Below, piece by piece: positions 12,333 to 34,564 of a stretch of 39,353 bases of DNA. Below the pieces are notes generated by a model that saw only the letters and a program-made list of their open reading frames with translations, made no database searches and was not told where the DNA came from. This DNA comes from an uncultured Clostridia bacterium (GTDB lineage Bacteria > Bacillota > Clostridia > Oscillospirales > Ruminococcaceae), in the NCBI GenBank assembly GCA_947625615.1, contig CANQPB010000021.1, positions 1 to 39,353 on the forward strand, written 5' to 3'. Within the stretch, counting starts at the first letter, position 1. Every line of letters begins with the position of its first letter. Position numbers and translations under genes: made by a program.

Positions 12333-13493
12333 TTATTCCAGCCCGGCAAGAATGCGCTGCATGATTACCCCGTCGGCGACGGTCATCACGCCGTCGGCGT
12401 TGAGATCGGAATACTTGCCCTTGGGCTCGAGGCCGGCGAGGATTCGCTGCATTATTACGCCGTCGCTGACGTTGATGATGCCGTCGGCGTTGATGTCGCC
12501 GTCTTCAACCGCTTTGACGGTGATGAAATAGGAATTGCCGAGGCCGGTGGAGTATTTTGTAGAGGCGAGCCCGACTCCTATATGGCCGCCCGGCTCGTTC
12601 ACCGCGGTGACGTGCGCCATGCCGTCCGAGAGAATTATCACGTCCACCAGCGACCTGTCCTCGGCCAAAGCTTCGGTAAAGTGGATTTTGGGCGTGGTAT
12701 ACTGATATCCCTTATTTTTGATGTAAAGGGAAAATACCGTGGTGTCGCCGATCATCAGCGTGGTTTCGCCCTCGGATATGTAAAGATACCCCTGGAGGCA
12801 TGAATAAGCGGCGGTGATGCTGTAGGTCTCCTGCAGGCCGCCGAGGGTTTTGGCAGGCTCCTCGTTCGCCTTTGCGGCGGAGAAGCACTGCACCCAGCTC
12901 CAGGTGCCGTCGCTGTTTTTAAAGCAGCCTATTCCGACCGAGACGTAATCGGCATTGAGCATATTCGTATTGTGCCCTGAGGAATTTCTCCACCCATTCA
13001 TGACTTCGGCGGGGCTGCGGTATCCTATGGCGATGTTTTCGGCGAAGCTGTGTTTGCCGCTGACCGGCGGGAACGCCGTGAAGCAGCTTGTGCCGTCGGG
13101 GCGGGTGTGGCTGTAGTAAACCGCGCACTCGGCGGCCCTCAGCATGGCCGCTTTTAACAGCTCGCGATCCATCTTAACGGGCTTTCGGCCGTTTGCCTCG
13201 CGGTGGCTGTTCAGAAGGTCAAGTATCTCATACGCCGCGCTGAAATCGCTGTAGCCGGTGATTTTGAGCTTGAACAGGTCGGAATCCTGAAAAGCGTCGC
13301 TGTCGGGGAGCTTTTGCATGGCGATATTATCGGCATATGCCGCAGCGTCGTAATTTTCGGGATAAAGAGGATCGCTGAGAGAATATTCGGGCATATCATC
13401 AGGGGCGGTTGCTATGATATCTGCGGGCATGAAGCCGCCCGTCAGCGTGACGACTATCGCCGCGGCGATTAAAATAACAGCAGCTTTTTTCAT
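12333..13493 (-). CDS. Secreted CAP-domain protein with a type I dockerin
   Basis: This 386-residue protein has a signal peptide (residues about 1-28, MKKAAVILIAAAIVVTLTGG). A CAP/SCP-like domain at about 90-215 includes LNSHREANGRKPVKM, SHTRPDG, FAENIA, and WRNSSGHNTNML. After a beta-rich region, a C-terminal dockerin at 332-386 has two Ca-binding DxNxDG loops (DINADG, DLNADG), each followed by SDGVIMQRILAGLE or the like. Dockerins attach proteins to cohesins in cellulosomes. It is 31 bp after the RpiB-like gene with a good ACGGAGGT site. It probably shares the pectin-product operon. Its enzymatic role is unclear. Confidence 0.9.
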   Translation of the reverse strand: MKKAAVILIAAAIVVTLTGGFMPADIIATAPDDMPEYSLSDPLYPENYDAAAYADNIAMQKLPDSDAFQDSDLFKLKITGYSDFSAAYEILDLLNSHREANGRKPVKMDRELLKAAMLRAAECAVYYSHTRPDGTSCFTAFPPVSGKHSFAENIAIGYRSPAEVMNGWRNSSGHNTNMLNADYVSVGIGCFKNSDGTWSWVQCFSAAKANEEPAKTLGGLQETYSITAAYSCLQGYLYISEGETTLMIGDTTVFSLYIKNKGYQYTTPKIHFTEALAEDRSLVDVIILSDGMAHVTAVNEPGGHIGVGLASTKYSTGLGNSYFITVKAVEDGDINADGIINVSDGVIMQRILAGLEPKGKYSDLNADGVMTVADGVIMQRILAGLE

Positions 13494-13524: not shown

Positions 13525-14166
13525 TCAGTCCAAAACCCTGCCGAGGATATAATCCTTAAGAGCGCAGGAGCGGCTGTCGGCGCAAAAGTATTCCTTAAAA
13601 TGCTCGCCCGCGAAGGCACCGCGCAAAAGCTCGGGATCGAGATCGCTTAAAATATCCTCAAGCGGCCTGAACGCCGCGGCGCGAACATTGTCCAAAATCT
13701 TTTTGTTGCGCTGCTCGGGTACGGCGCGCTCGCGGGGATATCCCTGCCCCGACGGCTCGCAGAAAAGCTTTTCGAAGATGTATTCAAGGTTGAGGTCGCC
13801 GCCCCAGCCGAAGCCCTTGGCAAAGGGTATCGCGATGACGTTGCCGTCGTTTATCTGGGCGAAGGTGTAGGCGTCGAGAGGATCCTCGACATGGCCGCAG
13901 ATGACGCCGGGGAAACTGTTGCAGGCGAGCATGGCGCCCTCGCCGGTGCCGCAGCCGGTGATGACATAGTCGGCGGCGCCGCTGTTTAGGAGCACTGCCG
14001 CCAAAATGCCTATCTGAACATAGGTAAGCTGCGCGGCGTCGTCGGGGCCGTACATGCCGTAGTTGCGAACGGTGTGGCCCATCGGCTCTACGACCTTTCT
14101 GAGCGAATTTTCAACGACGGCGTTCTTTGCCGCCTGGCTGTTTTCAGTGATAAGCGCTATCTTCAT
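13525..14166 (-). CDS. RpiB/LacAB-family sugar-acid isomerase, likely DhuI-like
   Basis: This protein of about 213 residues has the RpiB/LacAB fold pattern: N-terminal MKIALITENSQAAKN, central YVITGCGTGEGAMLACNSFPGV and HVEDPLDAYTFAQINDGNVIAI. The family interconverts aldose and ketose phosphates, but one branch, streptococcal DhuI, isomerises the 4-deoxy-5-ketouronate produced by unsaturated uronyl hydrolases. Next to GH105 and a dehydrogenase, the latter role is the most likely (KduI substitute). I chose ATG 14166, where AAGGC lies about 9 nt upstream, over the ATG two codons earlier. The space to the preceding gene is filled by a heptamer array. Confidence 0.8.
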   Translation of the reverse strand: MKIALITENSQAAKNAVVENSLRKVVEPMGHTVRNYGMYGPDDAAQLTYVQIGILAAVLLNSGAADYVITGCGTGEGAMLACNSFPGVICGHVEDPLDAYTFAQINDGNVIAIPFAKGFGWGGDLNLEYIFEKLFCEPSGQGYPRERAVPEQRNKKILDNVRAAAFRPLEDILSDLDPELLRGAFAGEHFKEYFCADSRSCALKDYILGRVLD

Positions 14167-14177
14167 AATCATTCTGC

Positions 14178-14240
14178 CTTTCTGAATTCTTACTTCTGCC
14201 GTCTGTTTTCCGATATCTGATTTCCGGCCTCTGCTTTCTG
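14178..14240 (-). repeat. Array of nine in-phase heptamers filling the SDR-RpiB gap
   Basis: On the minus strand, beginning right after the SDR stop codon, the units are CAGAAAG, CAGAGGC, CGGAAAT, CAGATAT, CGGAAAA, CAGACGG, CAGAAGT, AAGAATT and CAGAAAG. That is 63 nt with no phase break; the consensus is CRGANNN. The array ends 11 nt before the RpiB-like ATG, and its last bases serve as the ribosome binding site. The same heptamer type occurs in the dispersed hairpin-heptamer elements but on the strand opposite to the host gene. Confidence 0.85.
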
Positions 14241-15029
14241 TTAGGGCTGTCTGCCGATATAGGCGAGTATTCCGCCGTCGACGTAAAGGATCTGCCCGTT
14301 GACGAAATCAGAGGCTCGCGAGGCCAAAAACACCGCCGCGCCGTAAAGATCCTGAGGGACGCCCCATCTTCCGGCGGGGGTCTTCGAGATAATAAAGCTG
14401 TCGAACGGGTGGCGGGTGCCGTCGGGCTGAGGCTCCCGAAGGAGCGCGGTCTGGGGCGTGGCGATGTAGCCTGGGCCGATGCCGTTGCACTGAATGTTGT
14501 AGGCTCCGTATTCCGAGGCGATGTTTTTTGTGAGCATCTTAAGCCCGCCCTTTGCCGAGGCATAGGCCGAAACGGTCTCGCGGCCGAGCTCCGACATCAT
14601 CGAGCAGACGTTTATTATCTTTCCGCCGCCACGCTCTATCATGCCGGGAATAACCGCCTTTGAGCAGATAAAGGGCGCGACGAGATCGATATCCACGACC
14701 TCTTTGAAGCTGTCGGCGCTCATCTCGGTCATCGGAATACGCTTGATTATCCCCGCGTTGTTGACCAAAATATCCACCCCGCCGATTTTTTCGAGCATTT
14801 CGCCGACCTGCTTTTCGTCGGTGACGTCGCACAAAAAGCCTTGGGCGGAAATCCCCCTTTCGGAGTAGTCGCAAAGTGCCTTATCCAAATGCTCGCGCGA
14901 GCGGCAGCAAAATGTAATTTTTGCGCCCGCCGAGGCCAAAGCCTCGGCTATAGCAAAGCCTATGCCGTAGGCCGCGCCGGTGACAAGTGCGGTCTTTCCC
15001 TTGAGCGAAAAGAGCTCCGTAACGTCCAT
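14241..15029 (-). CDS. Gluconate 5-dehydrogenase/KduD-like SDR (DhuD role likely)
   Basis: This 262-residue classical SDR has TGAAYGIG near residue 17, NNAG near 90 and the catalytic YASAK. Its C-terminal half (NGIGPGYIATPQTALLRE, HPFDSFI, DFVNGQILYVDGGILAYIG) is the pattern of gluconate 5-dehydrogenases of Bacteroides and Firmicutes. In a pectin context such enzymes reduce the 2,5-diketo-3-deoxygluconate intermediate to KDG, as KduD or DhuD do. Genes are 5 bp apart from GH105, and GAGGT precedes the ATG. The activity on gluconate itself cannot be ruled out. Confidence 0.85.
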   Translation of the reverse strand: MDVTELFSLKGKTALVTGAAYGIGFAIAEALASAGAKITFCCRSREHLDKALCDYSERGISAQGFLCDVTDEKQVGEMLEKIGGVDILVNNAGIIKRIPMTEMSADSFKEVVDIDLVAPFICSKAVIPGMIERGGGKIINVCSMMSELGRETVSAYASAKGGLKMLTKNIASEYGAYNIQCNGIGPGYIATPQTALLREPQPDGTRHPFDSFIISKTPAGRWGVPQDLYGAAVFLASRASDFVNGQILYVDGGILAYIGRQP

Positions 15030-15034
15030 AGTTT

Positions 15035-16180
15035 TTACCTCCCCGCCTGCGAAGGCTTTCTTCGCGGGCCGTTTTTGTAGTCAATATATTTAAGATACTG
15101 CGCGTAGGCCATTATAAAGGCGGCGGCGCCCTTGGGCTCGTTTTCCGCCCTCGGCTCGCTTAAGTAATATTCCGGGGTGCCGTCCCGCCGCCCGGGATCA
15201 GGCCCCAGACCCGCCACCGCGCAGGTGTCGGCGAGGATAAGTCTGCCCTCGCGGCGGACAAGCTTTAATTCGGAAAGAGATTCAAGGATTCTTTCGGCGA
15301 AGGGGATATACTTGTCCTCTAATACAAGGCGCAGGCGGCACGCCTTGAATATTGAGGCTGCAACCATCGCCGAGCCGGAGGTTTCAAGGTAGTTACCCAA
15401 AAGATCCGGCTTGTCCGCCACCTGCCAAAACAGCCCGGTGTCGGGATCGGCATAATTTAAAATTCCCTTTATCGCCTCTTTGTAGATGTCGCCCAAAGCC
15501 CGCCTGACCTCGTAGACGCTCGGGTCGGTCTCCTCGGCGGTGTCGGCAAGGGCCATGAGATACCACCCCATCGCCCTAAGCCAGAAGCTTTTGCTGAGGC
15601 CGGTGCCGGGGTCTGCCCAGAAGACGGAACGGGATTCGTCGAAGCCGTGATAATAAAGCCCGGTTTTCGGATCGTGCATATTTTCGCGCACCCTTTCAAA
15701 CTGCCCCAAAATGTCGAAATAGCTGTCCTTTTTGCCGAAGCGGGTGTCGCAGGCCATTCTGAACGGCTGAGCCATGTAAAGGCCGTCCAGCCAGACCTGA
15801 TTCGGGTAGATTTTTTTGTGCCACATGCTGCCCGAGGCGGTGCGCGGGTGATTCTCAAGCTCCTTTAAAAGCGTGAACGCGGCCTTTTTATAGCGCTCGT
15901 CCGAGGTCTCGGAATAGGCGAATATCAACGCGCGGCCGGGCAGAATGTCGTCAAGCTTCTGCTCGTCGGGGCGGTAGGTTTTTATGCTGCCGTCGGGGTA
16001 TGTATAACTGTCGGCATAGGAGATTATGAGATCCTTTAATCGGCCGTCGCCGGTGGCGGAGTAAAGCTCCTCCGCCGCGCGCATCACCGCGCCGTCCTCG
16101 TAGCGCCACTTGTCGGCGGAAAAGCTGTAGACGCTCCCGAAAAATTCCTCGACATATTCTTTTATTTTTTTAGTATCCAT
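15035..16180 (-). CDS. Unsaturated rhamnogalacturonyl hydrolase, GH88/GH105 family
   Basis: This 381-residue alpha6/alpha6-barrel hydrolase has no signal peptide, so it acts in the cytoplasm. Family segments are NQVWLDGLYMAQPF (with the catalytic Asp in WLDGL), DPGTGLSKSFWLRAMGWYLMAL, and GTSGSAM-like ETSGSAMVAAS. GH105 enzymes remove the 4,5-unsaturated galacturonyl residue from the non-reducing end of lyase-generated oligosaccharides. The gene lies 2 bp after GH28 and 5 bp before the SDR. The product needs an isomerase and a reductase, both of which follow in the operon. Confidence 0.92.
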   Translation of the reverse strand: MDTKKIKEYVEEFFGSVYSFSADKWRYEDGAVMRAAEELYSATGDGRLKDLIISYADSYTYPDGSIKTYRPDEQKLDDILPGRALIFAYSETSDERYKKAAFTLLKELENHPRTASGSMWHKKIYPNQVWLDGLYMAQPFRMACDTRFGKKDSYFDILGQFERVRENMHDPKTGLYYHGFDESRSVFWADPGTGLSKSFWLRAMGWYLMALADTAEETDPSVYEVRRALGDIYKEAIKGILNYADPDTGLFWQVADKPDLLGNYLETSGSAMVAASIFKACRLRLVLEDKYIPFAERILESLSELKLVRREGRLILADTCAVAGLGPDPGRRDGTPEYYLSEPRAENEPKGAAAFIMAYAQYLKYIDYKNGPRRKPSQAGR

Positions 16181-16182
16181 AT

Positions 16183-17742
16183 TTATACCTGCCTGAAAGA
16201 ATCGACGCCGTCTACGTCGGCCGGCTCGCCCGAAAAGCCGGTTATCGCGACATTTTTGAAAAGAACCTCCCGAGCGTTTCGTATGAACACTCCCAGCCGA
16301 CAGATTGCCTTGCAGCCCCGCATCATCGCGGGGACGGCGGGGCGGGCGTCGTCGGAGAAGGAGATTTTTACGTTTTCAAGCTCTACACGCTCTATCGGCA
16401 TTTCGGGGAGGCCGTAGAAATATACCCCCGCGGCGTGGCATCCGGTGCATACGCAGTTGCGAACGGATATCCCGCCGACGCGCGGCGTGCGGCTGTCTAT
16501 GGGCAGCGGCTCTTTTGAAGCGACGTAGTCCGATTTGCCGTCGGAGCCGCAGTAGTAAAACGAATTTATGACGAACGGGGTGAGAACGTCCTGCATTACG
16601 ACGTTTTCAAAGACGATCCCCCGAATGTAGGAATCCTCTCCCCTGCCGCGGCGGGTCTTTACGCGAAGGCCGCGGTCGGTGCCGACAAAGCGGCAGTTTT
16701 TCACGGTTACGCCGTCGGCGCCGGCGGCTATCTCGCTGCCTACGGTCACGCCGCCGTGGCCGTGATACATCAGGCAGTTGTGAATGTGTATGTCCCGCGA
16801 GGGGGTTTTATATGTGCGGCCCATGTAGAGCTTACCCGATTTTATCGCTATGCAGTCGTCGCCGACCGAAAAGCGCACCCCGGCAATCTCCACCCCGGTG
16901 CAGGACTGGGGATTTATGCCGTCGGTGTTGTGAGAATTCGCGGGGGATTCTATCTTCAGATCGTAAAATCCGAGATTTTCGCAGAAAAACGGGTGGATAT
17001 TCCAGGACGGCGAATTTTTAAGGGTGATACCCGTGACGGTTATTCCGAAGCAGCGGTTGAGGTAGATAAGATGCGGCCTGCCGGGATCGCCGATGCGGTT
17101 TTCCGCGTTCCACCAGTTTGAAAAATCTGCCGAGCCGTCGATAACGCCCTCGCCGCAGACGACGGTGTTTTTAATGTCTACGCCGGTGATGACGCTTGCA
17201 AAGCAGTTGAGTGGGTTGCCCTCCCAGCTGCCGTAGAGGTATTCCGAGCTTTCGTCGCCGCCCTCTATCCTGCCGGGGAGAACGGGCAGGCGATCCTTTT
17301 GGGGAATGGCCTTCAAAACGCCGCCCGAGGCTATCTCGAAGGTGATGCCGCTCTTTAAAAACAGGCAGGTCACGTTGAATGTCCCCTCCGGCAAAAGCAC
17401 CCTGCCGCCCGGCGGGCAGCAGTATATTGCCGCCTGAACGGCGGGGGTGTCGTCGTGGGCGCCGTCGCCCCAGGCGCCGAAATCGCGGACGTTTAGGGTG
17501 ACCGGCTCGTGCGGGGTGTCGAATTCAAGGGCGGGGCCGATATCGTCGCCCCGCGAGGCGAAGACGCTGTAATGTCTGCCCGCCCCGAGCCCGTAAAGGG
17601 TGACGACCGCCCTCTCCTCCTCGGTTTTTCTGCCGTTGACGGTTAAGACGTATTTTTCGGCGGAGTAGTCCGCCGAGGGATCGCAAAGACAGACGACTGC
17701 GGATCTTGACCCTATATGAAGCGCTTTAAGTTCAAGCGGCAT
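16183..17742 (-). CDS. GH28 polygalacturonase-type glycosidase
   Basis: This protein of about 519 residues begins with a small beta-sandwich region (residues 1-85) and continues as a GH28 right-handed beta-helix. The catalytic motifs are all present: NTDG (about 272-275), DD (295-296), GHGG (328-331) and R-x-K as RVK (360-362). It hydrolyses alpha-1,4-galacturonosyl linkages. No signal peptide or dockerin is present, so it probably processes imported oligogalacturonides. I chose ATG 17742, with AAAGGGG 8 nt upstream, rather than the GTG at 17751 that abuts the Shine-Dalgarno sequence. First gene of the operon. Confidence 0.95.
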   Translation of the reverse strand: MPLELKALHIGSRSAVVCLCDPSADYSAEKYVLTVNGRKTEEERAVVTLYGLGAGRHYSVFASRGDDIGPALEFDTPHEPVTLNVRDFGAWGDGAHDDTPAVQAAIYCCPPGGRVLLPEGTFNVTCLFLKSGITFEIASGGVLKAIPQKDRLPVLPGRIEGGDESSEYLYGSWEGNPLNCFASVITGVDIKNTVVCGEGVIDGSADFSNWWNAENRIGDPGRPHLIYLNRCFGITVTGITLKNSPSWNIHPFFCENLGFYDLKIESPANSHNTDGINPQSCTGVEIAGVRFSVGDDCIAIKSGKLYMGRTYKTPSRDIHIHNCLMYHGHGGVTVGSEIAAGADGVTVKNCRFVGTDRGLRVKTRRGRGEDSYIRGIVFENVVMQDVLTPFVINSFYYCGSDGKSDYVASKEPLPIDSRTPRVGGISVRNCVCTGCHAAGVYFYGLPEMPIERVELENVKISFSDDARPAVPAMMRGCKAICRLGVFIRNAREVLFKNVAITGFSGEPADVDGVDSFRQV

Positions 17743-17772
17743 ATTTATCACCCCTTTATATATCTGAGATAA

Positions 17773-21749: not shown

Positions 21750-22187
21750 TTAAATTATGCAGCCCTTGCGGAGTATGACGTTTGCATACTGGCTTTTTTC
21801 TGTGGTGGCTACGATGACGTAGGCCTTTTTGGCCTCCCCGTAAAATTCGAAGCGCTCCAAAAAGCCGACGGAGCTTTCATCTCTGGCTTCTGCTTTTTTT
21901 ATAAGGTCAAAATAGGTCTGCCAGATGGAGACGTCGGCGTTGTCGCCCTCGCACCTTTGCATCAGCATGACCGGCTGATCGACATACTGATCGAGCGGGA
22001 TAAGGCTTAAGATCGCCTCTAAAATTTCGGGGACGCCGTGGCCGTCGAGCCTTACCACCTCGGCGTTTTTGCCGACCGATTCCGCCGGGAAATTGCCGTC
22101 GCCTATGACTACGGTGTCGCCGTGACCCATTTCGTCCAAAAGCATGAGCAGCTTTGGGGTGATTATTTCGGGTATTCCTTTTAACAT
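21750..22187 (-). CDS. RbsD/FucU-type sugar mutarotase
   Basis: This protein of about 145 residues has the RbsD/FucU signature LLDEMGHGDTVVIGDGNFPAES near its N-terminus. The family interconverts alpha and beta sugar anomers. FucU-type members act on L-fucose and related sugars. L-galactose shares the L-fucose configuration at C1-C5. I chose ATG 22187 because AGGAGG lies 6-7 nt before it; the longer frame to 22379 overlaps the upstream gene. It is the last gene of the six-gene operon, just 11 bp after the lactonase. Confidence 0.88.
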   Translation of the reverse strand: MLKGIPEIITPKLLMLLDEMGHGDTVVIGDGNFPAESVGKNAEVVRLDGHGVPEILEAILSLIPLDQYVDQPVMLMQRCEGDNADVSIWQTYFDLIKKAEARDESSVGFLERFEFYGEAKKAYVIVATTEKSQYANVILRKGCII

Positions 22188-22198
22188 TTCGCTCCTCC

Positions 22199-23077
22199 TT
22201 AAAGCATATTCGGTATCTCGGGCAGCTCGGGAAGATCGCCGAAGCCGTAGAAGCTCTTCGCGTTTTCGCCGAGAAACGCCCTCTTTTCGCCGTCGCTGAG
22301 GCGTGAAGATTCCAAAATGAATCTCACCGACATCTTGTAGGTGATCTCCGTCATCGTGCGGGGGTAGTCGCTCCCCCACATCAGCTTTTCGATTCCGCAG
22401 ATATCCGCGGCCTCTTTTACGGCCTCTATCGCCGAGGGATAGGGATAGTATTCACGGTTGAAAAGCCAGGTGAGGCCGCCGCTCTCGACGCGCACGTTTT
22501 TGTTTTTTGCGAGCTTTATCTGCTCGAGCCAGCCGTCTGTGGTCACCATTCCGAAATGGCCTATGGCGATTCGAAGGTTTGGACAGCGGTCTATAAGATA
22601 CTGCATGTCGGCGGTCTGCTCGGCGCCGTCGGCGAGGTCTATGGAGATATACATATTTTTGCTCTCGGCGTCCTTAAAGACGGGAAGGAGCTTTTTTAAG
22701 TCCCTGTCCCTGAGCCTTGAGGCGCAGATCTTTATGCCGTCGAAGCCCTCGGTCAGGTAGCCGCCGCGCTCCTCATAAAGCGAGCAGACGCGGAACCTGT
22801 CGGGATATTTTTTTCTCACCCTTAAAAGGTATTCGTCCTGGTTGCCGTCCATATATTCCTGGGTGACGCAGCAGGCCGCCACGCGTGCGTAGTTCATGTT
22901 GCCGATAAGGCGCTCGGCGGTATTCTTGCCGTCGTCCATATAGGCGGGCATCATCTGGCGCTCCTCGCCCAAAAAGCTTGAAAGCCCGTTTCGGATATGT
23001 CTTACAGGCATGCCGTTTATCATTCCGTCCTGGCGCTCCCAAAGATGAAGATGGGCGTCGATAATTAAGGGATTCAC
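22199..23077 (-). CDS. Amidohydrolase-superfamily lactonase (cog3618 type)
   Basis: This 292-residue TIM-barrel metallohydrolase has the N-terminal DAHLHLW (Asp7-His9-His11), GHFGM near residue 175 and GSDYPRT near 240. These fit the amidohydrolase_2/cog3618 group, which contains L-fucono- and L-galactono-1,5-lactonases. The start is GTG, overlapping the UxaA stop (GTGA). In this operon it should open the aldono-lactone made by the sugar dehydrogenase. The exact sugar is inferred from the neighbours. Confidence 0.85.
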   Translation of the reverse strand: MNPLIIDAHLHLWERQDGMINGMPVRHIRNGLSSFLGEERQMMPAYMDDGKNTAERLIGNMNYARVAACCVTQEYMDGNQDEYLLRVRKKYPDRFRVCSLYEERGGYLTEGFDGIKICASRLRDRDLKKLLPVFKDAESKNMYISIDLADGAEQTADMQYLIDRCPNLRIAIGHFGMVTTDGWLEQIKLAKNKNVRVESGGLTWLFNREYYPYPSAIEAVKEAADICGIEKLMWGSDYPRTMTEITYKMSVRFILESSRLSDGEKRAFLGENAKSFYGFGDLPELPEIPNML

Positions 23078-24456
23078 AGAGTAACACCGTCCTTGAAAAT
23101 GGCGATCTCTGCGTTTTTCGAGAGCTCGCTCTTGGTTTTTTTGCCGTTGACCGTATCCGCGACGAATTCAAAGAAGGCGTCTTCGGGATTTTCGCCCTCA
23201 AGCATTCCGCCGGCATCGAAATCTATCCAGCCCGGCTTGTTTTTGTAAAGCGCGCTGTTTGAGGATATCTTCACGGTGGGCACCGGCGAGCCGAGCGGGG
23301 TGCCCCTGCCGGTGGAGAACAGTATAAGCTGGCAGCCGCAGGCCGCAAGATTTGTTATCGCGACGATGTCGTTTCCGGGGCCGTCAAGAAGGCTGAGGCC
23401 GCTTTTTTTGACCGCGTCGCCGCAGCTTAAAACGTCGGTGACGGCGGCGGTGCCCCCCTTCTGAACGCAGCCGAGGGATTTTTCCTCGAGGGTGGTGATA
23501 CCCCCGGCGCGGTTTCCCGGCGAAGGGTTTTCATATATCTCCTGCCCGTGGGCGGTGAAGTAATCCTTGAAATTGTTTATCAGCCGAACGGTTTTTTCGA
23601 AGACCTCGCGGGAGGAGCAGCGGTTCATTAAAATGGTCTCGGCGCCGAACATCTCGGGAACCTCCGTAAGAACCGCGGAGCCGCCCATAGAAATAAGCCT
23701 GTCGGAAAAGCGGCCGATAAGCGGATTTGCGGTGATGCCGGAATAGCCGTCGGAGCCGCCGCACTTCAAGCCCACCCGAAGCTTTGATATCGGCACGGGC
23801 TGCCTGACAAATCCGCCGGCATAGGCTTTCAGCCCGTTAATAAGCTTGACGCCCTCCGAGATCTCGTCGTGGTGATCCTGGCAGTTCAAAAATTTCACCC
23901 TTTCGGGGTTTACCTCGCCGAGGATCTTTTTGAATTCGGGGATATTGTTATTTTCGCAGCCGAGCCCCAAAACGAGCACGCCGCCGGCGTTGGGGTGTCT
24001 GACAAGGCCGGAAAGGATCTTCTGGGTGGTTAAGCGATCGCCGCCGAGCTGCGAGCAGCCGTAGGGGTGGGTAAGCGCGATCGCTCCCGTCAGCTCGCCG
24101 AGATTTTTCGCAACGCCGTTCACGCAGCCGACCGTCGGAATTATCCAGATATCGTTTCTTATGCCGATTTCGCCGTTTTCGCGCAAATACGCCTGAACCG
24201 TTATGGGCTCTATGGGCGCGATCTCGCATTTTTCGGGGCGGTAGGAATATTCCTCCCGAAGATTCAGCGCCGTCTTTAAATTGTGGGTGTGAACGCTCTC
24301 GCCCGGGGCGATGTCGCATACGGCTTTGCCGATTTGAAAGCCGTATTTTATCACGCTCTCACCGGCGCCAATGGCGCGCAGGGCTATTTTATGCCCCGTC
24401 TCGGGATTTACGCCGACGTTGTCGTTTTGATGGATCTTTATAAGACCCGGCTTCAT
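23074..24456 (-). CDS. uxaA: Altronate dehydratase (UxaA family)
   Basis: This protein of about 460 residues dehydrates altronate to KDG and is an iron-dependent enzyme. The N-terminal SAF domain covers about 1-70 (LIKIHQNDNVGV, GESVHTHNLKT). The main domain carries NDIWIIPTVGCVN, ALTHPYGCSQLGGD, GLGCENNNIPE, and LKCGGSDGYSGITANP. I chose ATG 24456, which overlaps the uxaB stop (ATGA) and has GGGAGG upstream. The order uxaB-uxaA with coupled translation supports a shared pathway. Confidence 0.92.
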   Translation of the reverse strand: MKPGLIKIHQNDNVGVNPETGHKIALRAIGAGESVIKYGFQIGKAVCDIAPGESVHTHNLKTALNLREEYSYRPEKCEIAPIEPITVQAYLRENGEIGIRNDIWIIPTVGCVNGVAKNLGELTGAIALTHPYGCSQLGGDRLTTQKILSGLVRHPNAGGVLVLGLGCENNNIPEFKKILGEVNPERVKFLNCQDHHDEISEGVKLINGLKAYAGGFVRQPVPISKLRVGLKCGGSDGYSGITANPLIGRFSDRLISMGGSAVLTEVPEMFGAETILMNRCSSREVFEKTVRLINNFKDYFTAHGQEIYENPSPGNRAGGITTLEEKSLGCVQKGGTAAVTDVLSCGDAVKKSGLSLLDGPGNDIVAITNLAACGCQLILFSTGRGTPLGSPVPTVKISSNSALYKNKPGWIDFDAGGMLEGENPEDAFFEFVADTVNGKKTKSELSKNAEIAIFKDGVTL

Positions 24457-25778
24457 CTTAGGGCCTCCCGGTAATAGGCGGACATGCCCTCGCGGCAAAT
24501 AAGATTGTATGTATTCTCGACATCATTTTGCATAAAGCCGAGATCCTCGCCCCAGTAGTCGGTTCTCGATAAAATATCCTTTACCGAGGCGGTCTTCATG
24601 AATTTCATGATCTCCTCGCCGTCGTTCGCCTCGTCGGTGCGGTAAAAGGCTATCAGCGCGGCCAAAGACATCGTGAGAAGCTTTGGCAGGCGGCCGTTTT
24701 GCTCGCGGTATTCCAAAACCGTCGGCAGAACCCTTGCCTTGAATTTGCTTACGGAATTTAAGGCTATCGACAAAAGCTGATGCTTGACAAAGGGATTTGC
24801 AAAGCGCTCCAAAACAGCGGCGCCGAAGGTTTTGTCCTCGTCGGTGGAGCCGAGGGTGGGGATTATCTCCTCGTCGAGGGCCTTTTTCAAAAAGCCGCAG
24901 ACGTTCGGGTCGTCAAGGCATTCCTTGACGGTGGAAAGCCCGTAGAGCCTCGCCGCCAAAACCATTGAGGTGTGCGCGCCGTTTAAGATCCTCACCTTGC
25001 GCTTTTTATAGGGGGTGACGTCGTCCGTCCAGATGACGTTTATCCCCGCCTTTTTCAGCGGGAATTCGTCCTCGTAGTTTCCCTCGATGACCCAAAGGTG
25101 GAATATCTCGGCGGTGTTCAAAAGCCTGTCTTCGCAGCCGAGCTCGCGGCAGAGCGATTCCGCCTCGTCCTTGGGGTATCCGGTGCAGATTCGGTCTACA
25201 AGCGTGTTGCAGAAGTGATTTTCCGTCTCTATCCAGGACTTGAACCCGTCGCCCAAATTCCAGAGATCGGCATATCTTAGAACATATTCTTTCAGAAAAT
25301 CGGCGTTGTGGTCTATAAGCTCGCAGCAAAAGAGTATAAATCCGGGAAGGCCGCACTTGAAGCGCTCGTATAAAAGCGCGGTGAGCTTTGCGGGGAAGGA
25401 CTTCGGCGGGGCGTCGCTAAGCTTTTCGGTGCCGAGATATTCAATTCCCGCCTCGGTGGTGTTCGAGATTATAAAGCGCATGTCGGGGTTGTGAGCAAGC
25501 TCCAAATAAGCCTTGTAGTCGGCATAAGGATTTACCCCGCGGGAGATCGAATGCACCTCGGTGCACTGATTTATCACCCTGCCGTTTTCAACGCCCCTGA
25601 GATACTGGTGGTATACGCCCTGCTGAGAATTCAGAACGTCGATAAGGCCCTTTTCTATCGGCTGGACGACTACGGCTTTGCCGTCGAAGACTCCCTTTTC
25701 GTTCATTATGTGAATGAACATGTCGGCAAAGGAGCGCAAAAATCCGCCCTCGCCAAACTGAATGATTCTCTCTTTCAT
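24453..25778 (-). CDS. uxaB: Tagaturonate reductase (UxaB family)
   Basis: This 441-residue protein belongs to the mannitol dehydrogenase family; it reduces D-tagaturonate to D-altronate with NADH. The N-terminal FGEGGFLRSFADMFI and central VRILNGAHTSMV match UxaB. Length is a little short of the E. coli enzyme (about 480). The start has GGAGG 7 nt upstream, inside the end of the previous gene (2-bp gap). No UxaC lies in the window, so tagaturonate may come from L-galactonate by the preceding dehydrogenase. Confidence 0.92.
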   Translation of the reverse strand: MKERIIQFGEGGFLRSFADMFIHIMNEKGVFDGKAVVVQPIEKGLIDVLNSQQGVYHQYLRGVENGRVINQCTEVHSISRGVNPYADYKAYLELAHNPDMRFIISNTTEAGIEYLGTEKLSDAPPKSFPAKLTALLYERFKCGLPGFILFCCELIDHNADFLKEYVLRYADLWNLGDGFKSWIETENHFCNTLVDRICTGYPKDEAESLCRELGCEDRLLNTAEIFHLWVIEGNYEDEFPLKKAGINVIWTDDVTPYKKRKVRILNGAHTSMVLAARLYGLSTVKECLDDPNVCGFLKKALDEEIIPTLGSTDEDKTFGAAVLERFANPFVKHQLLSIALNSVSKFKARVLPTVLEYREQNGRLPKLLTMSLAALIAFYRTDEANDGEEIMKFMKTASVKDILSRTDYWGEDLGFMQNDVENTYNLICREGMSAYYREALR

Positions 25779-25780
25779 GA

Positions 25781-26803
25781 TCAGTCCTCCGCAATTTTAA
25801 CGAGCACCTTGCAAAGATCGCCCTTGTTGTTTGCAAGCGCCTTGAAAGCCTCGTCCGCCCTGTCCATGGGGTAGACGTCGCTCACCATTTTCAGAACGTC
25901 TACGCGGCCCGAGGCAATAAGGTCGATGACGTCCTTGAAATCGGACGGATAGGAATTTCGGCTGCCGTAGACGTTGAGTTCCTTTTTAAGGAGTATGGAA
26001 TGCAGGAAGGTGGTCTCCTTCTTGCCGTTGCCTATAAGGATTATTCTTCCGGCAAAGGCCGCGCAGTCGATGCAATTGAGGAACGTGACCGACTGCCCGC
26101 AGGCCTCGATGCAGACGTCGAAGCCGTCGCCGCCGGTTATTTTCATCGCCTCGGCGACGATATCGCACTTTGCGGAATTTATCACGCCCTTAGCCCCGAA
26201 GCCGAGGGCTTTTTCAAGGCGGCCGTCCAAAATGTCGGCGACATAGACTTCGGCGCCCTTTTCGCGGGCGGCGATGAGCGCAAAGAGGCCAATCGGCCCA
26301 GCTCCGACGACGAGCACCCTGTCGCCCGCCTTGACGGGGGCGCGGTTCACGGCGTGATAGCTTATCGTGAACGGCTCGACGAGCGCAAGCTCCTTGGCGG
26401 AAAGCCCCTTTCCATCGTAAATTCTCTCAACCGGCATGGAGACGTATTCGCAGAAGCTGCCGTCGCGCTGAACGCCCATGGTGCGGTTGTCGGTGCAGCA
26501 GTTGACATATCCGCGGCGGCATGAATAGCATTCGCCGCAGTTAAAATAGGGGTTCGCCGTTACGACGTCGCCCGGCTTCAGGCCGCGGTTGTTTTCGGGG
26601 ATAGAAACTATTTCCGCGGAAAACTCGTGCCCGGGGATCCTCGGGTAGGTGGTAAAGGGCTGGTTGCCGGTGTAGCTCGCGACGTCCGCCCCGCAGATTC
26701 CGCCGTAGAGGATCTTTAAAAGCGCCTCGCCCTCCTTTGCCTCCGGCTTCGGGGTGTCGGTCACCGCGATCTCAAAGGGTTTGTTGATCAAAACTGTCTT
26801 CAT
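25781..26803 (-). CDS. Zinc-dependent alcohol dehydrogenase, likely aldonate 5-dehydrogenase
   Basis: This 340-residue medium-chain dehydrogenase has catalytic zinc ligands Cys37 (ICGAD) and His59-Glu60 (PGHEF). The structural zinc cysteines are Cys89, 92, 95 and 102/103. The Rossmann motif is VVGAGPIGLFAL. It resembles the RspB/LgoD (L-galactonate 5-dehydrogenase) group. Between a lactonase and UxaB, oxidation of L-galactonate to D-tagaturonate is the most economical role. L-threonine or sorbitol dehydrogenase activity is an alternative. AAGGAG lies 8 nt before the ATG. Confidence 0.87.
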   Translation of the reverse strand: MKTVLINKPFEIAVTDTPKPEAKEGEALLKILYGGICGADVASYTGNQPFTTYPRIPGHEFSAEIVSIPENNRGLKPGDVVTANPYFNCGECYSCRRGYVNCCTDNRTMGVQRDGSFCEYVSMPVERIYDGKGLSAKELALVEPFTISYHAVNRAPVKAGDRVLVVGAGPIGLFALIAAREKGAEVYVADILDGRLEKALGFGAKGVINSAKCDIVAEAMKITGGDGFDVCIEACGQSVTFLNCIDCAAFAGRIILIGNGKKETTFLHSILLKKELNVYGSRNSYPSDFKDVIDLIASGRVDVLKMVSDVYPMDRADEAFKALANNKGDLCKVLVKIAED

Positions 26804-26815
26804 AAATATTGCTCC

Positions 26816-28015
26816 TTAAATATTGATATATTTTTTGTTCCAGATGACCGCCGTTTTCATAGGCGCGGCCTTGGAATAAATCTTTTCGCGGTAGGCTCCT
26901 ATCGGGTCGGCGGCGAACTCGTCGCGGTCGATAAGCTCGACTATCTCGTTATAGCGGCTCTTAGACAAAAGCTCTATGGCGCACTCCATATGGCACTGAC
27001 GGAAGTTTATCGAGCCGAAGATGAGGTGGTTTTCAAAGCCGAAGGGCATGGTGTCGTATTCCACCCTCGGGCCCAGAGAAAAGCTGTTGTAAACGCCGTT
27101 GCAGCCGAGAACTTTATGCTCGAACGCCACCCTGTGCTCGACATTAGACCCGCTGACGCCGATGAACATCGTCGCCCTGCCGCCGAGGCGCTTGATTATC
27201 GCGTCGGCAAGCTGTTTTTCGCTGTCGAAGGTGTTGCGAAGGTATTCCGCGCCGGTCTCGCGAAGGGCGAACCTTACCTTTTGGGAATCCTCGGGGCTGC
27301 GGGCTACAAAGAGGATCTTCGAGCCGGGGTGATTTTTCGATATGAGATCCCCCATGAACATGCCGGTGGTGCCGAGGCCGAAGATGACGGTGCGGTCAAA
27401 TACCTCCTCCTTGGCGATCATTCTCGCCTCGTCTTCCGAGCACTTTTCACGCGCCATCACCACCCTGAACAGGTGGGCCGAGCCCAAATCCTCCATTCTC
27501 TCAAGCTGGAAGAGCATGCAGCCGTAGGGATCGGGAAAGACCATTTTTTTGGCGAATTCAAGGTCTATTTTGCCGTCTTTGACATAGCCGTCGGGGATTT
27601 TTAAGAGCATGTCGGGGTTGAAATACTGCGCGTCGGCAAAAAGGCCGTCGGCCCTGTCGCAGCCGTATTCAAAATAGGTCTCGTCCTCGGTATAGCGGGT
27701 GGGGTCATAGCTGTCGCCGCCGCGGATCAAAACTATAGCGAAGCGGTTTTGAGACGGCACCCAGACTATCCCCTCGTGGCCGTTGATGAGGCGGTTTTCG
27801 CCCTCGGGGAATTTCGGCCCCAAAAGCCCCTTTGAACCCATGTTCATGAGCTCAAAATCGGTGCCGCAAAAGCCTATCAGCACCGGCTCGCAGAGAACGC
27901 CCTCCTTTTCGGGCTCGCCCCTGAGCCTGCGTCGCTTTACGTTTTTTATCTCGGCGTCGCCGTAGACGAGCGGGCGCTCGGGATCGTTCTGAAAATATGT
28001 TGCTTTAACTTTCAT
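26816..28015 (-). CDS. Glucose-dehydrogenase-like MDR, likely aldose 1-dehydrogenase
   Basis: This protein of about 399 residues resembles the glucose dehydrogenase branch of medium-chain dehydrogenases. It has Cys50 (GFCGTDFE), His80-Glu81 (INGHEG), Rossmann VIFGLGTTGMFMGD, and the C-terminal ENHLIFGSINFRQCHMECAIE, comparable to the GSVN-x-R-x-H-E segment of that family. The structural-zinc cysteine cluster is absent. The family oxidises aldoses at C1 to lactones. I chose ATG 28015 (GGAG 8 nt upstream). First gene of the operon. Confidence 0.82.
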   Translation of the reverse strand: MKVKATYFQNDPERPLVYGDAEIKNVKRRRLRGEPEKEGVLCEPVLIGFCGTDFELMNMGSKGLLGPKFPEGENRLINGHEGIVWVPSQNRFAIVLIRGGDSYDPTRYTEDETYFEYGCDRADGLFADAQYFNPDMLLKIPDGYVKDGKIDLEFAKKMVFPDPYGCMLFQLERMEDLGSAHLFRVVMAREKCSEDEARMIAKEEVFDRTVIFGLGTTGMFMGDLISKNHPGSKILFVARSPEDSQKVRFALRETGAEYLRNTFDSEKQLADAIIKRLGGRATMFIGVSGSNVEHRVAFEHKVLGCNGVYNSFSLGPRVEYDTMPFGFENHLIFGSINFRQCHMECAIELLSKSRYNEIVELIDRDEFAADPIGAYREKIYSKAAPMKTAVIWNKKYINI

Positions 28016-28049
28016 TGTCATATCTCCGTTCCAAGTTGGATTTAAAGCT

Positions 28050-28078
28050 ATTCTACTACTTTTGCGCCGGGATTTCAA
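28050..28078 (-). promoter_or_regulatory. Promoter of the six-gene sugar-acid operon
   Basis: On the minus strand TTGAAA (28073-28078) and TAGAAT (28050-28055) are separated by 17 bp. The predicted start is near 28043, about 28 nt before the first ATG. Confidence 0.75.
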
Positions 28079-28152
28079 TAGTAAATTCGCCGATGTCGGG
28101 AATTTTTTCGGGAGCAAGGCGGGGTGTGCCCTTCCCGCGCCCTTTTCCGTAT

Positions 28153-28390
28153 GCGAGGCGCCATAGGCGCCTCGCCGGGGAGACCCCCGGCGAGGGTCTC
28201 CCCGCGAAAAAACTGTCCACCGGACAGTTTTTTCTCCCCGTCCTGCGCTTCGCTTCGCATTATCCGGAGTACGCCTGCTCGGCGTCCTCCGGGGAGATTC
28301 CGCGACCGCGGTCGCGGCTCGTGGGCTCCGCCCCCGAGACCCCCGCGGCCTTTTGAAAAAGGCCGGCGAAAACTTTTGCGTTTGCCGAGC
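28153..28390. repeat. String of consecutive GC-rich hairpins
   Basis: No gene is seen here. In about 240 bp there are at least six tight stem-loops: GCGAGGCGCC/GGCGCCTCGC (28153-28175), an 11-bp stem at 28176-28204, a 12-bp perfect stem AAAAAACTGTCC/GGACAGTTTTTT (28207-28233), CCGGAG-ACGCC/GGCGT-CTCCGG (28264-28292), the dyad CCGCGAC/GTCGCGG (28300-28317), and GGCCTTTT/AAAAGGCC (28347-28364). It separates divergent promoters and could be a terminator relic or a repetitive element. Confidence 0.75.
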
Positions 28391-28439
28391 GAAGACTTCG
28401 CGGATTGTTATTGCTTTTCCGCCTTTATTGAAAAGGGTA

Positions 28440-28468
28440 TTGCATTTTGCGGCAAAAGGGTGTAAAAT
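28440..28468 (+). promoter_or_regulatory. Promoter of the DUF3737-malY pair
   Basis: TTGCAT (28440-28445) and TAAAAT (28463-28468) with a 17-bp spacer. The leader to the ATG is about 34 nt and has AAAGGAAG. Confidence 0.7.
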
Positions 28469-28508
28469 ATCCCGTGACAGCTTTTAGCCATGAAAGGAAG
28501 ATTATAAA

Positions 28509-30676: not shown

Positions 30677-33600
30677 CTAAAGCTGGGCAAGCAGCCTTTG
30701 CATGTAAACTCCGTCCTTGACGTCGATAACGCCGTCGAAGTTGAAATCGGCGACAAGCAGGTATTTCGACTTGTCCTCGAGGTCTGAGAGGATCCTCTGC
30801 ATCAGAACGCCGTCCATGACGTTGGTCTTGCCGTCGGTGTTCAGGTCGCCGTTGGGCGCAACCCTGCGGTGGCCGCAATGCTTGCAGGTGCCGGTCTCGT
30901 CATATTCGTGAGGAATTGTGGAGGACGGCTTTTCACGGGTCTGGGTGGCGGTGCAGCGCTCGCAGGTGGAGGTTTCGGTGCCGTTCTGCGTGCAGGTGGC
31001 GTTGCCGTCGTCGACATAGGTGACGAAGCTGTGGCCGAGCTTTGCGATAACCTCGGACTTGATTATAACTCCGCAGACGTCGCACTTGACGGAGCGGCTG
31101 CCGTCTTCGGTGCAGGTGGCGGGGGTATCGACTATCCAGTTGTTTTCGTCGAACTTATGGCCGCTGGCGACAAGGCCGTTGGTCTCGGTGAAGCCGCAGC
31201 GGTTGCAGCTGCGGGATTCGGTGCCGCTGTCGTCGCAGTCGGGCATGTCGACGGTGCTCCAGGGGCCCCAATCGTGGCCGAGCGCGGAATTAAGAATTTC
31301 GCGGGTGTCGGTGGCGTGGCAGACCTCGCAGGTGGCCGTCTCGGTGCCGTTTTCGGTGCAGGCGGCGTTGTTATCCGGCTTGTAGGCGCCGTAGCGGTGG
31401 CCGAGCGCCGTGCCGGGCTCCGCGCGATCCATATAGGAGCCGCAGCCGTTGTCGCAATAGGCGCGAACCATGGCGTCCTCGGTGCAGGTGGCAGGGGTGA
31501 CTATCTCGTTATACTTCGTGAACGAATGCTGGGTGAGCATTGTCCCCTCTTTTCTGCGGACGCTCTTTTCGCCGCACTTGACGCAGGTGGCGGTCTCGGT
31601 GCCGTCGCTTGCCTCGGTGGCGTTGTCGTCGTAGACATATGGGCCGAACTCGTGGCCGGTGGCGGTATCCTGGAGGATTTCCTCAATGCGGTCGGCGCAG
31701 CGGCTGCATTGCTTCTGAATGACGGTGCTGTCGGTGCAGGTGGCCTCCTTGAGGGTTGATGTCACATACTCGTGACCCAAAGCGGTGCCGGGTCTCGGGC
31801 GGGTATCGGTGGCGATCTTGCAGACCTCGCAGACGGCCTGCTCGATGGCGTCTTCGGTGCAGGTGGCCGGGGTGATTATCTCATACTTGACGAACGAATG
31901 CCCCGCAATTGCGGTGTTGGCGGCGGTTCTTGTATCGGTCTTGCCGCAGCCGAAGGCGCACTCCGCGGTCTCGGTGCCGTCCTTTTCGATTCCGGCGTCG
32001 TTATTGTAAACGTAGTTGCGGAAATCGTGCTGAACGGCGGGGTGGGTCGGATCGTCTACGATATCGGAATATTTGCAGACGCCGCACATGCGGGACTTGT
32101 GTCCGCCATGCTGACAGGTGGCGTCTTCAAGGTAGATGTAATCGGTGAGCCAGGTGTGCTCGGCCAACGCAAGGGTGACGGAGGTGGTGGCGCTGCAGCC
32201 GTCGGTCTTGCACCGATAGGTGGCGCTGCCTTGGGTCGTGCAGGTGGATTCCGTCAGGGAAACGGGGTGCTCGTAGTCCCAAACATGGGCGCCGGTGGCG
32301 GGAATGGTCTCAAAGGCGGTGGTAGCCTCGCCGCAGACCGAGCAGTGGATAGATTTGGAGCCCTCGGTGTAGCAGGTGGGTTCCTTGTCAATAGTGTAAT
32401 CCCCGTCAATGAAGGTGTGGGTGGAAACTCCCTCGGAAATAACATATCTGTCATAGCAGACGGTGCAATATTTGTACTGCCCGGGGGTGGTGACGCACCC
32501 GGTAATCTCCTCGGTGATTACGTCGCTCCACTTGTGGCCGGCAGGGAGTTCGACCCTTTCGGTCTTTGAATAGCCGCACTTGGTGCAGCGGTATTCCGTA
32601 ACGGTGTAGCCGGCGTCGTCGCAGGTGGCGTCCTTATGCTCAATTACTGTAGTCTTGAAATCGTGAGGCTCGGTTATGGACTGCTTGCAGGCGACGCTTG
32701 AACACTTAGCGGTGTGCTCCAGCTCGTTGCCCTCTATCTTGATATATGTAGTATACCTGTGAGCCTGCTGAGCCGCTTTGATGATAACATCTTCACCGCA
32801 GGAGCAATAGACGGGAGTTGTGCAGTCTCCGTCGTCCCTTAAAATAACGCTTATTCCGCTGTCGTGAGCGGAGACGCTCTTTGTCGTGCCGCACTTTAAG
32901 CATACGGAGCCATGGGTATCGTCGTCTATCTTTTGTATAGGCGACCATTCGTGATAGGTGGCGGAAACCCTTCTCGAACAGGTTTCGCATTTATAGGAGA
33001 GCTGGCAGGGATTCTCAAGAGACCTCGGATCGTGATTGCTAACCTCGGTGACATAGTCGCAGCCGGGATTTTTACATTTTTTCCAATGCTTGTCGTTGGA
33101 GGAATCCCAAACCAAATTGTGATTTTCCATGCCGTCCCGGATTTTTTCGCCGCAAACGGCGCACATCACGGGCTGAGTGCAGTCAACGATATCCTCGGGA
33201 GTATGCGGCAATTGGGGAATTTCTTTGCTAACTTGTGAATACCCGCAGTATTTGCATTTGGTTTCCGTCTTTCCGGGGGCTGTGCAGGTCGCGTCGGTTG
33301 TGACGGTTACGTACACGTGGGACGTCCGGGAAAACTCGTGGTTTTCCTCAACCGTGCCGCACTTTGTGCACTTGGCTTTGCCCTTGCCGGGCTTCTGTCC
33401 GCATATGGGAAGCTCGGTGTATTCGCCCTCAAGAACCCAGTTGTGGCCGGTGGCGTAACGGGTCATTTTAACAGATGAGCCGCAGTTGTTTGCGCACTTC
33501 ATTTCGATATAGCCGTTCTTATCGCACTCGGGCTCTACCACAGTGTTATTTGGGTCGTAAATGCCGGGATAGTTATGGTCGATAGCAGGGATAATACTGA

Positions 33601-34564
33601 TATCTTTAACCGCTCCGCAATCCTGACATGCGGTATACTGAACGCCGTCGGTTGTGCAGGTGGCGGGTATAACGGTAGGCTCAGAAGCCCAATTATGAGA
33701 ATCTTCCTGTAGTCCCTTAACCTCTATCCAACCGCATACCGAGCACTTCTGAATCGTCTCATTGCCGCAGGCGAGCCTTTCATCAGCAAGAGGTTCAAGC
33801 TTATGCCCGGCGGCAACCGCATCTTTTACTTGACTTTTGCTTTCATAAGATAACTTAGTGCAGATACTGCAATACTGTCTGTAAACAGAATGCGCAGGCA
33901 CCGTGCAGGTAGCCGCATAATCTACGCTTGTTCTGTATCCCAAATTGCAAGAAATGATTACTCTGACCTTAACCGGTTTTTCGACGCCATCGAGGGAAAT
34001 GTAAAGGGTAATGTAGCCCTCAGTAGCGTCGGGGGTGTCTATCCAGCCGAATTTCTGCTCAGCTTCGTCAAACCATTGGGGCGTAGCGCCTTCAAGGGTG
34101 GATTCTTCTTCTGCCGAAGTATTTTGGTGCTTAATTTCTACATTTGTGATCTTCTTAGTGGAGATCATGTAAAAATCAGGCGCTTCGCAGCTGGAAACTT
34201 CGGAACTGAAATGACCGGATTTTACATAGGACTTGACGACAAGACCGCTCTTGTTATAAACGGTGCGGTAATGCTCGGGGGTTGTATCCTCGGCATTGGG
34301 ATATTCGGTCGATCTGCTCTGCGCCTCGGTGAGGTTGGGAGCGTCGGACTCGAACGGGACGGCGACGCCGCCCAAAAATTCGCCGGAGACATCGGACAAA
34401 AGGCCGCCGGCTGCGGCGTGGTCTTCGCCGATGGTGTGAACGTGGGTTTCGGGAACCGTTTCGGGTTCCTCGACGACCTCAAAATCGGTGCTGACGGGCA
34501 CAACAAGGGTCATCAGCATTACGCCGCAGAGGGCCGCGGCGAGGGCTCTTTTCAAAAAGCTCAT
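30677..34564 (-). CDS. Giant secreted protein of CxxC modules with a C-terminal dockerin
   Basis: This 1295-residue protein has a signal peptide (1-25, MSFLKRALAAALCGVMLMTL). An N-terminal region of about 200 residues follows. Then come about 26 irregular modules of 30-50 residues of the type ATCTEDG-x-x-x-x-x-C-x-x-CG-x-x-x-x-(15)-GH. The two or three cysteines of each module and the final GH could form zinc or disulfide cores; similar repeats occur in surface proteins of gut Firmicutes. A dockerin at about 1238-1295 has DLNTDG and DFNFDG loops. AGGAGG precedes the ATG. No catalytic domain is seen; a scaffold or adhesin role is inference. Confidence 0.92.
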   Translation of the reverse strand: MSFLKRALAAALCGVMLMTLVVPVSTDFEVVEEPETVPETHVHTIGEDHAAAGGLLSDVSGEFLGGVAVPFESDAPNLTEAQSRSTEYPNAEDTTPEHYRTVYNKSGLVVKSYVKSGHFSSEVSSCEAPDFYMISTKKITNVEIKHQNTSAEEESTLEGATPQWFDEAEQKFGWIDTPDATEGYITLYISLDGVEKPVKVRVIISCNLGYRTSVDYAATCTVPAHSVYRQYCSICTKLSYESKSQVKDAVAAGHKLEPLADERLACGNETIQKCSVCGWIEVKGLQEDSHNWASEPTVIPATCTTDGVQYTACQDCGAVKDISIIPAIDHNYPGIYDPNNTVVEPECDKNGYIEMKCANNCGSSVKMTRYATGHNWVLEGEYTELPICGQKPGKGKAKCTKCGTVEENHEFSRTSHVYVTVTTDATCTAPGKTETKCKYCGYSQVSKEIPQLPHTPEDIVDCTQPVMCAVCGEKIRDGMENHNLVWDSSNDKHWKKCKNPGCDYVTEVSNHDPRSLENPCQLSYKCETCSRRVSATYHEWSPIQKIDDDTHGSVCLKCGTTKSVSAHDSGISVILRDDGDCTTPVYCSCGEDVIIKAAQQAHRYTTYIKIEGNELEHTAKCSSVACKQSITEPHDFKTTVIEHKDATCDDAGYTVTEYRCTKCGYSKTERVELPAGHKWSDVITEEITGCVTTPGQYKYCTVCYDRYVISEGVSTHTFIDGDYTIDKEPTCYTEGSKSIHCSVCGEATTAFETIPATGAHVWDYEHPVSLTESTCTTQGSATYRCKTDGCSATTSVTLALAEHTWLTDYIYLEDATCQHGGHKSRMCGVCKYSDIVDDPTHPAVQHDFRNYVYNNDAGIEKDGTETAECAFGCGKTDTRTAANTAIAGHSFVKYEIITPATCTEDAIEQAVCEVCKIATDTRPRPGTALGHEYVTSTLKEATCTDSTVIQKQCSRCADRIEEILQDTATGHEFGPYVYDDNATEASDGTETATCVKCGEKSVRRKEGTMLTQHSFTKYNEIVTPATCTEDAMVRAYCDNGCGSYMDRAEPGTALGHRYGAYKPDNNAACTENGTETATCEVCHATDTREILNSALGHDWGPWSTVDMPDCDDSGTESRSCNRCGFTETNGLVASGHKFDENNWIVDTPATCTEDGSRSVKCDVCGVIIKSEVIAKLGHSFVTYVDDGNATCTQNGTETSTCERCTATQTREKPSSTIPHEYDETGTCKHCGHRRVAPNGDLNTDGKTNVMDGVLMQRILSDLEDKSKYLLVADFNFDGVIDVKDGVYMQRLLAQL

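Follow-up and report, generated by a model that had tools for sequence, protein, structure and literature searches.

L-Galactose dehydrogenation and the known pathways

Few organisms are known to use L-galactose. BVU_0219 of Phocaeicola (Bacteroides) vulgatus is an aldo-keto reductase, and the L-galactose pathway of this bacterium reportedly includes a cog3618 lactonase. BVU_0219 and BVU_0222 are described as converting L-galactose to L-galactonate and then to D-tagaturonate, and BVU_0219 clusters with plant L-galactose dehydrogenase (GALDH) and with LguA (PMC12632266). The same source places an L-galactose dehydrogenase, an L-galactonate dehydrogenase, a tagaturonate reductase and an altronate dehydratase together in the lgu cluster of Luteolibacter LG18 (PMC12632266). 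In Escherichia coli, the pathway is entered at L-galactonate, and lgoD, uxaB and uxaA lie at separate places. Here we describe a six-gene operon in a 39,353-nucleotide stretch of DNA (the window) from an uncultured Clostridia bacterium of the Ruminococcaceae (contig CANQPB010000021.1), which we consider, with fairly good confidence, to be best explained as a catabolic operon for L-galactose.

The operon occupies 21750-28015 on the minus strand, with gaps of 12, 2, −4, −4 and 11 bases between its consecutive, tightly packed genes. This order and spacing, together with recurrence in relatives, confirm the single six-gene operon seen in the initial annotation, and the genes are presumably co-transcribed. 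The first gene encodes a medium-chain dehydrogenase/reductase (MDR) and the second a zinc alcohol dehydrogenase (ADH):

26816..28015, minus strand: MDR, proposed L-galactose 1-dehydrogenase, 399 aa; matches a PDB glucose 1-dehydrogenase at E 2e-5; Cys50, His80, Glu81 and Asp162 invariant across 41 sequences
25781..26803, minus strand: zinc ADH, proposed L-galactonate 5-dehydrogenase, 340 aa; ADH_N and ADH_zinc_N domains; 36.7% identity to LgoD
24453..25778, minus strand: UxaB, tagaturonate reductase, 441 aa; NCBIfam PRK03643 at 535 bits (cut-off 359)
23074..24456, minus strand: UxaA, altronate dehydratase, 460 aa; GD_AH domains; 49.6% identity to E. coli UxaA
22199..23077, minus strand: amidohydrolase of the cog3618 kind, proposed L-galactono-1,5-lactonase, 292 aa, GTG start; Amidohydro_2 domain
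21750..22187, minus strand: FucU-type mutarotase, 145 aa, ATG start; RbsD_FucU domain; best PDB match 3mvk
28016..28508, no strand: intergenic region between the operon and a divergent DUF3737 gene; presumed promoter site, placed by gene positions alone

Proposed pathway

In the proposed pathway, FucU would equilibrate the anomers of L-galactose, the MDR would oxidise C1, probably with NADP, to give L-galactono-1,5-lactone, and the amidohydrolase would hydrolyse this lactone, giving L-galactonate. C5 oxidation by the zinc ADH, probably with NAD, would then yield D-tagaturonate, which UxaB would reduce to D-altronate with net inversion at C5 and UxaA would dehydrate to 2-keto-3-deoxygluconate (KDG). 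An assumed KDG kinase and a 2-keto-3-deoxy-6-phosphogluconate (KDPG) aldolase, matched on contig C27 of the genome, would complete the route, and the UxaB/UxaA arm would be common to a D-galacturonate route via UxaC on contig C7. We infer the substrate, the cofactors and the direction of the reactions; the gene content and order, their conservation, the protein families and the copy number of UxaA are observed directly.

By established stereochemistry, the aldonate other than D-altronate that gives D-tagaturonate upon C5 oxidation is L-galactonate. The four-gene module of MDR, ADH, lactonase and FucU probably makes D-tagaturonate and would therefore begin at L-galactose; an aldose of L-galacto configuration also suits the mutarotase family. 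The core route from mutarotation to KDG with L-galactose as substrate, already put forward in the initial annotation, gains support from the conservation of the cluster, the similarity of the ADH to LgoD and the repeated linkage to UxaB/UxaA. Further points in its favour are the lactonase fold, closest to that of a B. multivorans cog3618 enzyme, the UxaB score, the placement of UxaA in cluster-holding genomes, GH29 genes within the gene run of 4 of the 80 loci, the KDPG aldolase of the genome and the scarcity of UxaC near the cluster (1 of 80 loci).

The pathway as such is already known from Phocaeicola and Luteolibacter and, from L-galactonate on, from E. coli. The chain proposed here is the one described for Phocaeicola vulgatus (PMC12632266), and the last three steps would correspond to LgoD, UxaB and UxaA of E. 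coli, whose homologues in the operon are 36.7%, 45.4% and 49.6% identical. No dehydrogenase of the GALDH, BVU_0219 or LguA kind occurs in the cluster, whose first gene is MDR-like: P. vulgatus has BVU_0219, of the GALDH/LguA cluster, in the place of the zinc MDR. Luteolibacter differs likewise, in that LguA clusters with plant GALDH and not with MDRs (PMC12632266). Further differences are that its main text names no lactonase, that an rbsD-like gene sits with lguG outside the lgu cluster, and that the lgu pathway of this Verrucomicrobiota host also serves L-glucose (PMC12632266). Since the reaction chain is the same and the family-defining first enzyme is different, the operon is a variant of the known pathway; very probably, what is new here is a zinc MDR as the first enzyme where the known pathway uses an unrelated aldo-keto reductase. 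The initial annotation had regarded the gene set as distinct from that of Bacteroides, which holds for this first enzyme and not for the reaction chain.

Conservation and spread of the cluster

Relatives were collected by one MDR pattern scan that returned 249 stretches, 236 of them encoding a relative, and the best 80 loci, at 72-89% identity, were fetched; gene sets were counted from homologues anywhere in a fetched locus. The initial annotation had proposed a search for conservation of the cluster; all six genes occur in 33 of the 80 loci, and MDR, ADH, lactonase and FucU without uxaB and uxaA in 21 more. The other 26 loci, many of which stop at contig ends, hold smaller sets (7 MDR-ADH, 4 MDR-ADH-lactonase, 4 MDR-lactonase, 3 MDR-ADH-UxaB-UxaA, 3 MDR only, 2 MDR-ADH-UxaB-UxaA-lactonase, 2 MDR-ADH-UxaB and 1 MDR-ADH-UxaB-lactonase). 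This recurrence exceeds chance.

Many of the loci come from samples of rabbit, rumen, horse, roe deer and other herbivores. The MDR gene is patchy: in the bacterial family concerned it is present in 11 of 297 genomes, the window's own included, and in three of the five genomes of the same genus shown; among 398 genomes of the phylum it was matched in the window's genome only, apart from one 52-residue match. Two Treponema loci (L017 and L038) have the gene order MDR-ADH-LAC-FucU-UxaB-UxaA, where LAC is the lactonase, and both the ADH tree and the UxaA tree place them among Bacillota, which suggests lateral spread of the cluster.

An AraC-type regulator gene was observed in 31 of the 80 loci, usually divergent and adjoining the MDR gene (for example L010:8943-9785, the locus in which Pfam made the assignment); no such gene stands beside the window's own operon.

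UxaB, UxaA and the link with galacturonate

UxaB clearly exceeds the cut-off of the tagaturonate reductase model. UxaA has the domains listed above and matched no UxaA-specific NCBIfam model, and it is the only UxaA found in the genome (a single PF20629 match). The statement in the initial annotation that UxaC is absent applies to the operon; the genome has one UxaC match, at C7:9002-10387. Because UxaC is present and the operon carries the sole UxaA, galacturonate must use this altronate arm too.

Placement was compared by hand reading of gene positions for 40 handles representing 39 distinct genomes (G461 is G731), 37 with the cluster and two (G460 and G686) without it. UxaA is present in all 37 cluster-holding genomes and UxaC in 36, the exception being G685, which is 84% complete. 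In 24 of the 37 (G000, G563, G456, G597 and those represented by 20 loci), UxaA lies at the cluster, in no case sharing a contig with UxaC, and in 12 it lies elsewhere (G001, G003, G004, G007, G011, G014, G016, G447, G458, G562, G631 and G685); G632, in which a contig break obscures the arrangement, was left out. Nine of these 12 have UxaA less than 5 kb from UxaC, and in the other three the two genes are on separate contigs (G003), 11.5 kb apart (G447) or without a UxaC match (G685). Separate contigs in a draft assembly are no proof of distance, but the contrast is sharp nonetheless. Of 18 genomes without uxaA at the cluster locus, a separate test detected UxaA in 16.

In a UxaA tree of 44 rows, 37 cluster-linked rows form one well-supported group. 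The UxaA of G456, which together with UxaB lies on the same strand as the MDR about 1 kb away, falls outside it and groups with the uxaC-linked lineage, of which four rows were sampled. UxaA, and with it UxaB, thus joined the four-gene module on two or more occasions, and the two linkages of UxaA lie on well-supported branches. This is most naturally read as the module and UxaC each supplying D-tagaturonate, which would make this a clear case of a short enzyme arm common to, and moved between, two sugar pathways.

A second mannitol-dehydrogenase-type gene was seen near the only KDPG aldolase match of the genome (G000:C27:11129-15326); perhaps it belongs to a glucuronate arm.

The dehydrogenases

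Among the six genes, Pfam, NCBIfam and fold matches revealed no aldo-keto reductase. To our knowledge, every dehydrogenase described for L-galactose or L-fucose is either an aldo-keto reductase or a short-chain dehydrogenase. The short-chain type is covered in one source (PMC13406643). The matches listed in the open-licence literature contained no account of this operon or of an MDR-type L-galactose dehydrogenase.

The MDR matched no NCBIfam model at E <= 0.001, and its 20 bits against Pfam Glu_dehyd_C fall under the gathering score of 34.9, which leaves it outside the glucose dehydrogenase family. Archaeal glucose 1-dehydrogenases bind a structural zinc in a lobe where the MDR has a single Cys; three of them (3wic, 2cdb and 2b5v) share about 18% identity with it, and their fold rows are tied with those of many other MDRs. 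The structure model has a pLDDT of 78, weak loops and tied fold matches, and no substrate was read from it.

We lean, by a small degree, towards a wider reading of these data, in which the MDR stands at the head of a superfamily of its own, made up of L-galactose 1-dehydrogenases without relation to the aldo-keto reductases; together with the mutarotase and lactonase, these would have spread as a cassette through Bacillota and Treponema of herbivore guts. Linkage of this cassette to UxaB/UxaA, in most such genomes the sole altronate arm and so also serving galacturonate, would have arisen at least twice, and an unrelated iron-type (Fe-ADH_2) dehydrogenase would have taken over the C5 step in a side branch. 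A gene marker for L-galactose use would show which herbivore-gut anaerobes probably have this ability, and would assign a function to a dehydrogenase family that no NCBIfam model covers.

For the second dehydrogenase, the 36.7% identity to LgoD, the L-galactonate dehydrogenase of E. coli, extends over 332 residues without gaps and is the best among eight E. coli relatives. An Fe-ADH_2-type dehydrogenase was observed at the ADH position in L064:3712-5073, L073:4758-6119, L075:11214-12581 and L077:11223-12584, with fragments in L074:5494-6671; Pfam assigned the protein of L064, to which those of L073, L075 and L077 are 84-87% identical. A non-homologous enzyme may here have replaced the C5 dehydrogenase.

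Source of the sugar

L-Galactose occurs in rhamnogalacturonan II, which the initial annotation suggested as a possible source. The pectin-type run of the window at 13525-17751 encodes members of glycoside hydrolase (GH) families GH28 and GH88, a short-chain dehydrogenase and an RpiB-like protein, and lends this source no specific support. Gut enzymes release L-galactose from corn xylan (PMC4491172), which is stripped by GH95, GH31 and GH43 enzymes, GH95 being the L-galactose releaser (PMC4491172, PMC7176698). GH29, GH31, GH36, GH43 or GH95 genes occur in 15 of the 80 loci, up to 8.6 kb from the MDR, a count without a background rate that was made with queries from the same loci and the window's genome, had only some of its members confirmed by Pfam and omits a weak 25% GH43-like match in L059. 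Grass xylan accounts for these cluster-near glycosidases of relatives no less well than rhamnogalacturonan II does.

GH29 genes stand within the co-directional gene run in four loci (L042, L066, L068 and L081), and a profile built from them found no further match in the fetched loci, although other GH29 subfamilies may escape it. A fifth adjoins the MDR-ADH genes of G597, and the window's genome has two, neither close to the operon. Alpha-galactosidase activity is noted for two GH29 enzymes in a review (PMC10154630).

The diagnostic GH95 position is Thr370 in the Bacteroides ovatus alpha-L-galactosidase and His419 in the fucosidase AfcA (PMC4491172). GH95 is present in 37 of the 39 genomes searched, both same-genus genomes without the cluster among them, and Thr stands at this position in all 30 typed proteins (the best-scoring matches in 30 of the 37 genomes), including that of the window's genome. 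We set GH95 specificity aside as proof of L-galactose, since it is undercut by His-type enzymes adjoining the cluster and by Thr-type enzymes in two of the 30 genomes (G460 and G686) that lack the cluster.

On contig C7, a few kb from UxaC, L082:11618-19345 holds a co-directional run of GH3, GH43, an aldo-keto reductase with iron-sulphur motifs and a Thr-type GH95.

Weighing of the alternatives

Several observations weigh against L-galactose as the substrate. The MDR resembles known sugar dehydrogenases only distantly, its fold matches being tied with many alcohol dehydrogenases, and the branch joining ADH and LgoD has 99/57 support amid very long branches; an iron-type dehydrogenase or its fragments replace the zinc ADH in 5 of the 80 loci. 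The lactonase reaches 23.5 bits against the L-fucono-1,5-lactonase model NF052480 (cut-off 400), and FucU, well above the gathering score of RbsD_FucU (136.4 bits against 25) and matching 3mvk, the protein FucU, at E 3.2e-52, stays below the cut-off of the L-fucose mutarotase model PRK15420 (111.6 bits against 141). No transporter gene is among the six, UxaC lies near the cluster of L010/G632 and is present in nearly all carriers, and the GH95 adjoining it in L009, L011 and L012 has the fucosidase-type His.

It seems unlikely that the operon is mainly one for galacturonate, with UxaB and UxaA working for a UxaC encoded far away and the four remaining genes acting on a different aldose co-regulated with pectin breakdown. 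The genome does have UxaC, as do 36 of the 37 genomes with the cluster, no UxaA was found in it besides that of the operon, and pectin genes lie in the window. The initial annotation had named a uxaC and hexuronate transporter, always co-regulated, as the mark of such an operon; uxaC is near only 1 of the 80 loci, some 5.5 kb off and divergent. Against this reading also stand the 21 loci with the four-gene module alone and its repeated linkage to UxaB/UxaA. Oxidation of L-fucose (or D-arabinose) to L-fuconate by FucU, the MDR and the lactonase is quite improbable, even though FucU and the lactonase are like L-fucose enzymes, GH29 lies in the gene run of four loci, His-type GH95 adjoins the cluster in three, and no more than 9 of the 39 genomes examined have FucI. 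The UxaB/UxaA substrates carry a C6 hydroxyl that L-fuconate does not have, the window's genome has FucI for L-fucose, and Pfam and NCBIfam revealed no L-fuconate dehydratase among the six genes, to which the search for one was confined.

Still less credence is due to an L-glucose/L-gluconate route as in Luteolibacter or Paracoccus, in which 5-keto-L-gluconate would enter the same arm. It needs a C4 epimerase, and none is among the six genes, the only part of the genome searched for one; moreover, LguA favours L-galactose 40-fold and L-glucose is presumed absent from nature (PMC12632266). Least probable is reverse operation as an electron sink, with tagaturonate from galacturonate reduced to L-galactonate or further: dehydrogenase steps are reversible in principle, yet the lactonase and mutarotase suit the oxidative direction, and GH29 in the gene runs of relatives suggests sugar release. 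L-Galactose catabolism is the reading we retain.

Operon layout and surroundings

Of the six operon starts, only that of the lactonase has no GGAG-like stretch in front of it. The best start codons are ATG at 24456 for UxaA and ATG at 22187 for FucU; the longer TTG open reading frame (ORF) of UxaA is a mechanical ORF call, to which the 460-aa ATG version is preferred, and a 209-aa GTG ORF for FucU was set aside in favour of the 145-aa ATG version. Upstream of the operon are the divergent DUF3737 gene and a PatB-type C-S lyase gene, and downstream an HtrA-type protease gene. No RNA family reached its gathering score in the window. The window also encodes two type I dockerin proteins (30677-34564 and 12333-13493, both minus strand), the larger of which has 1295 aa and otherwise no Pfam match; they suggest a cellulosome-like system.

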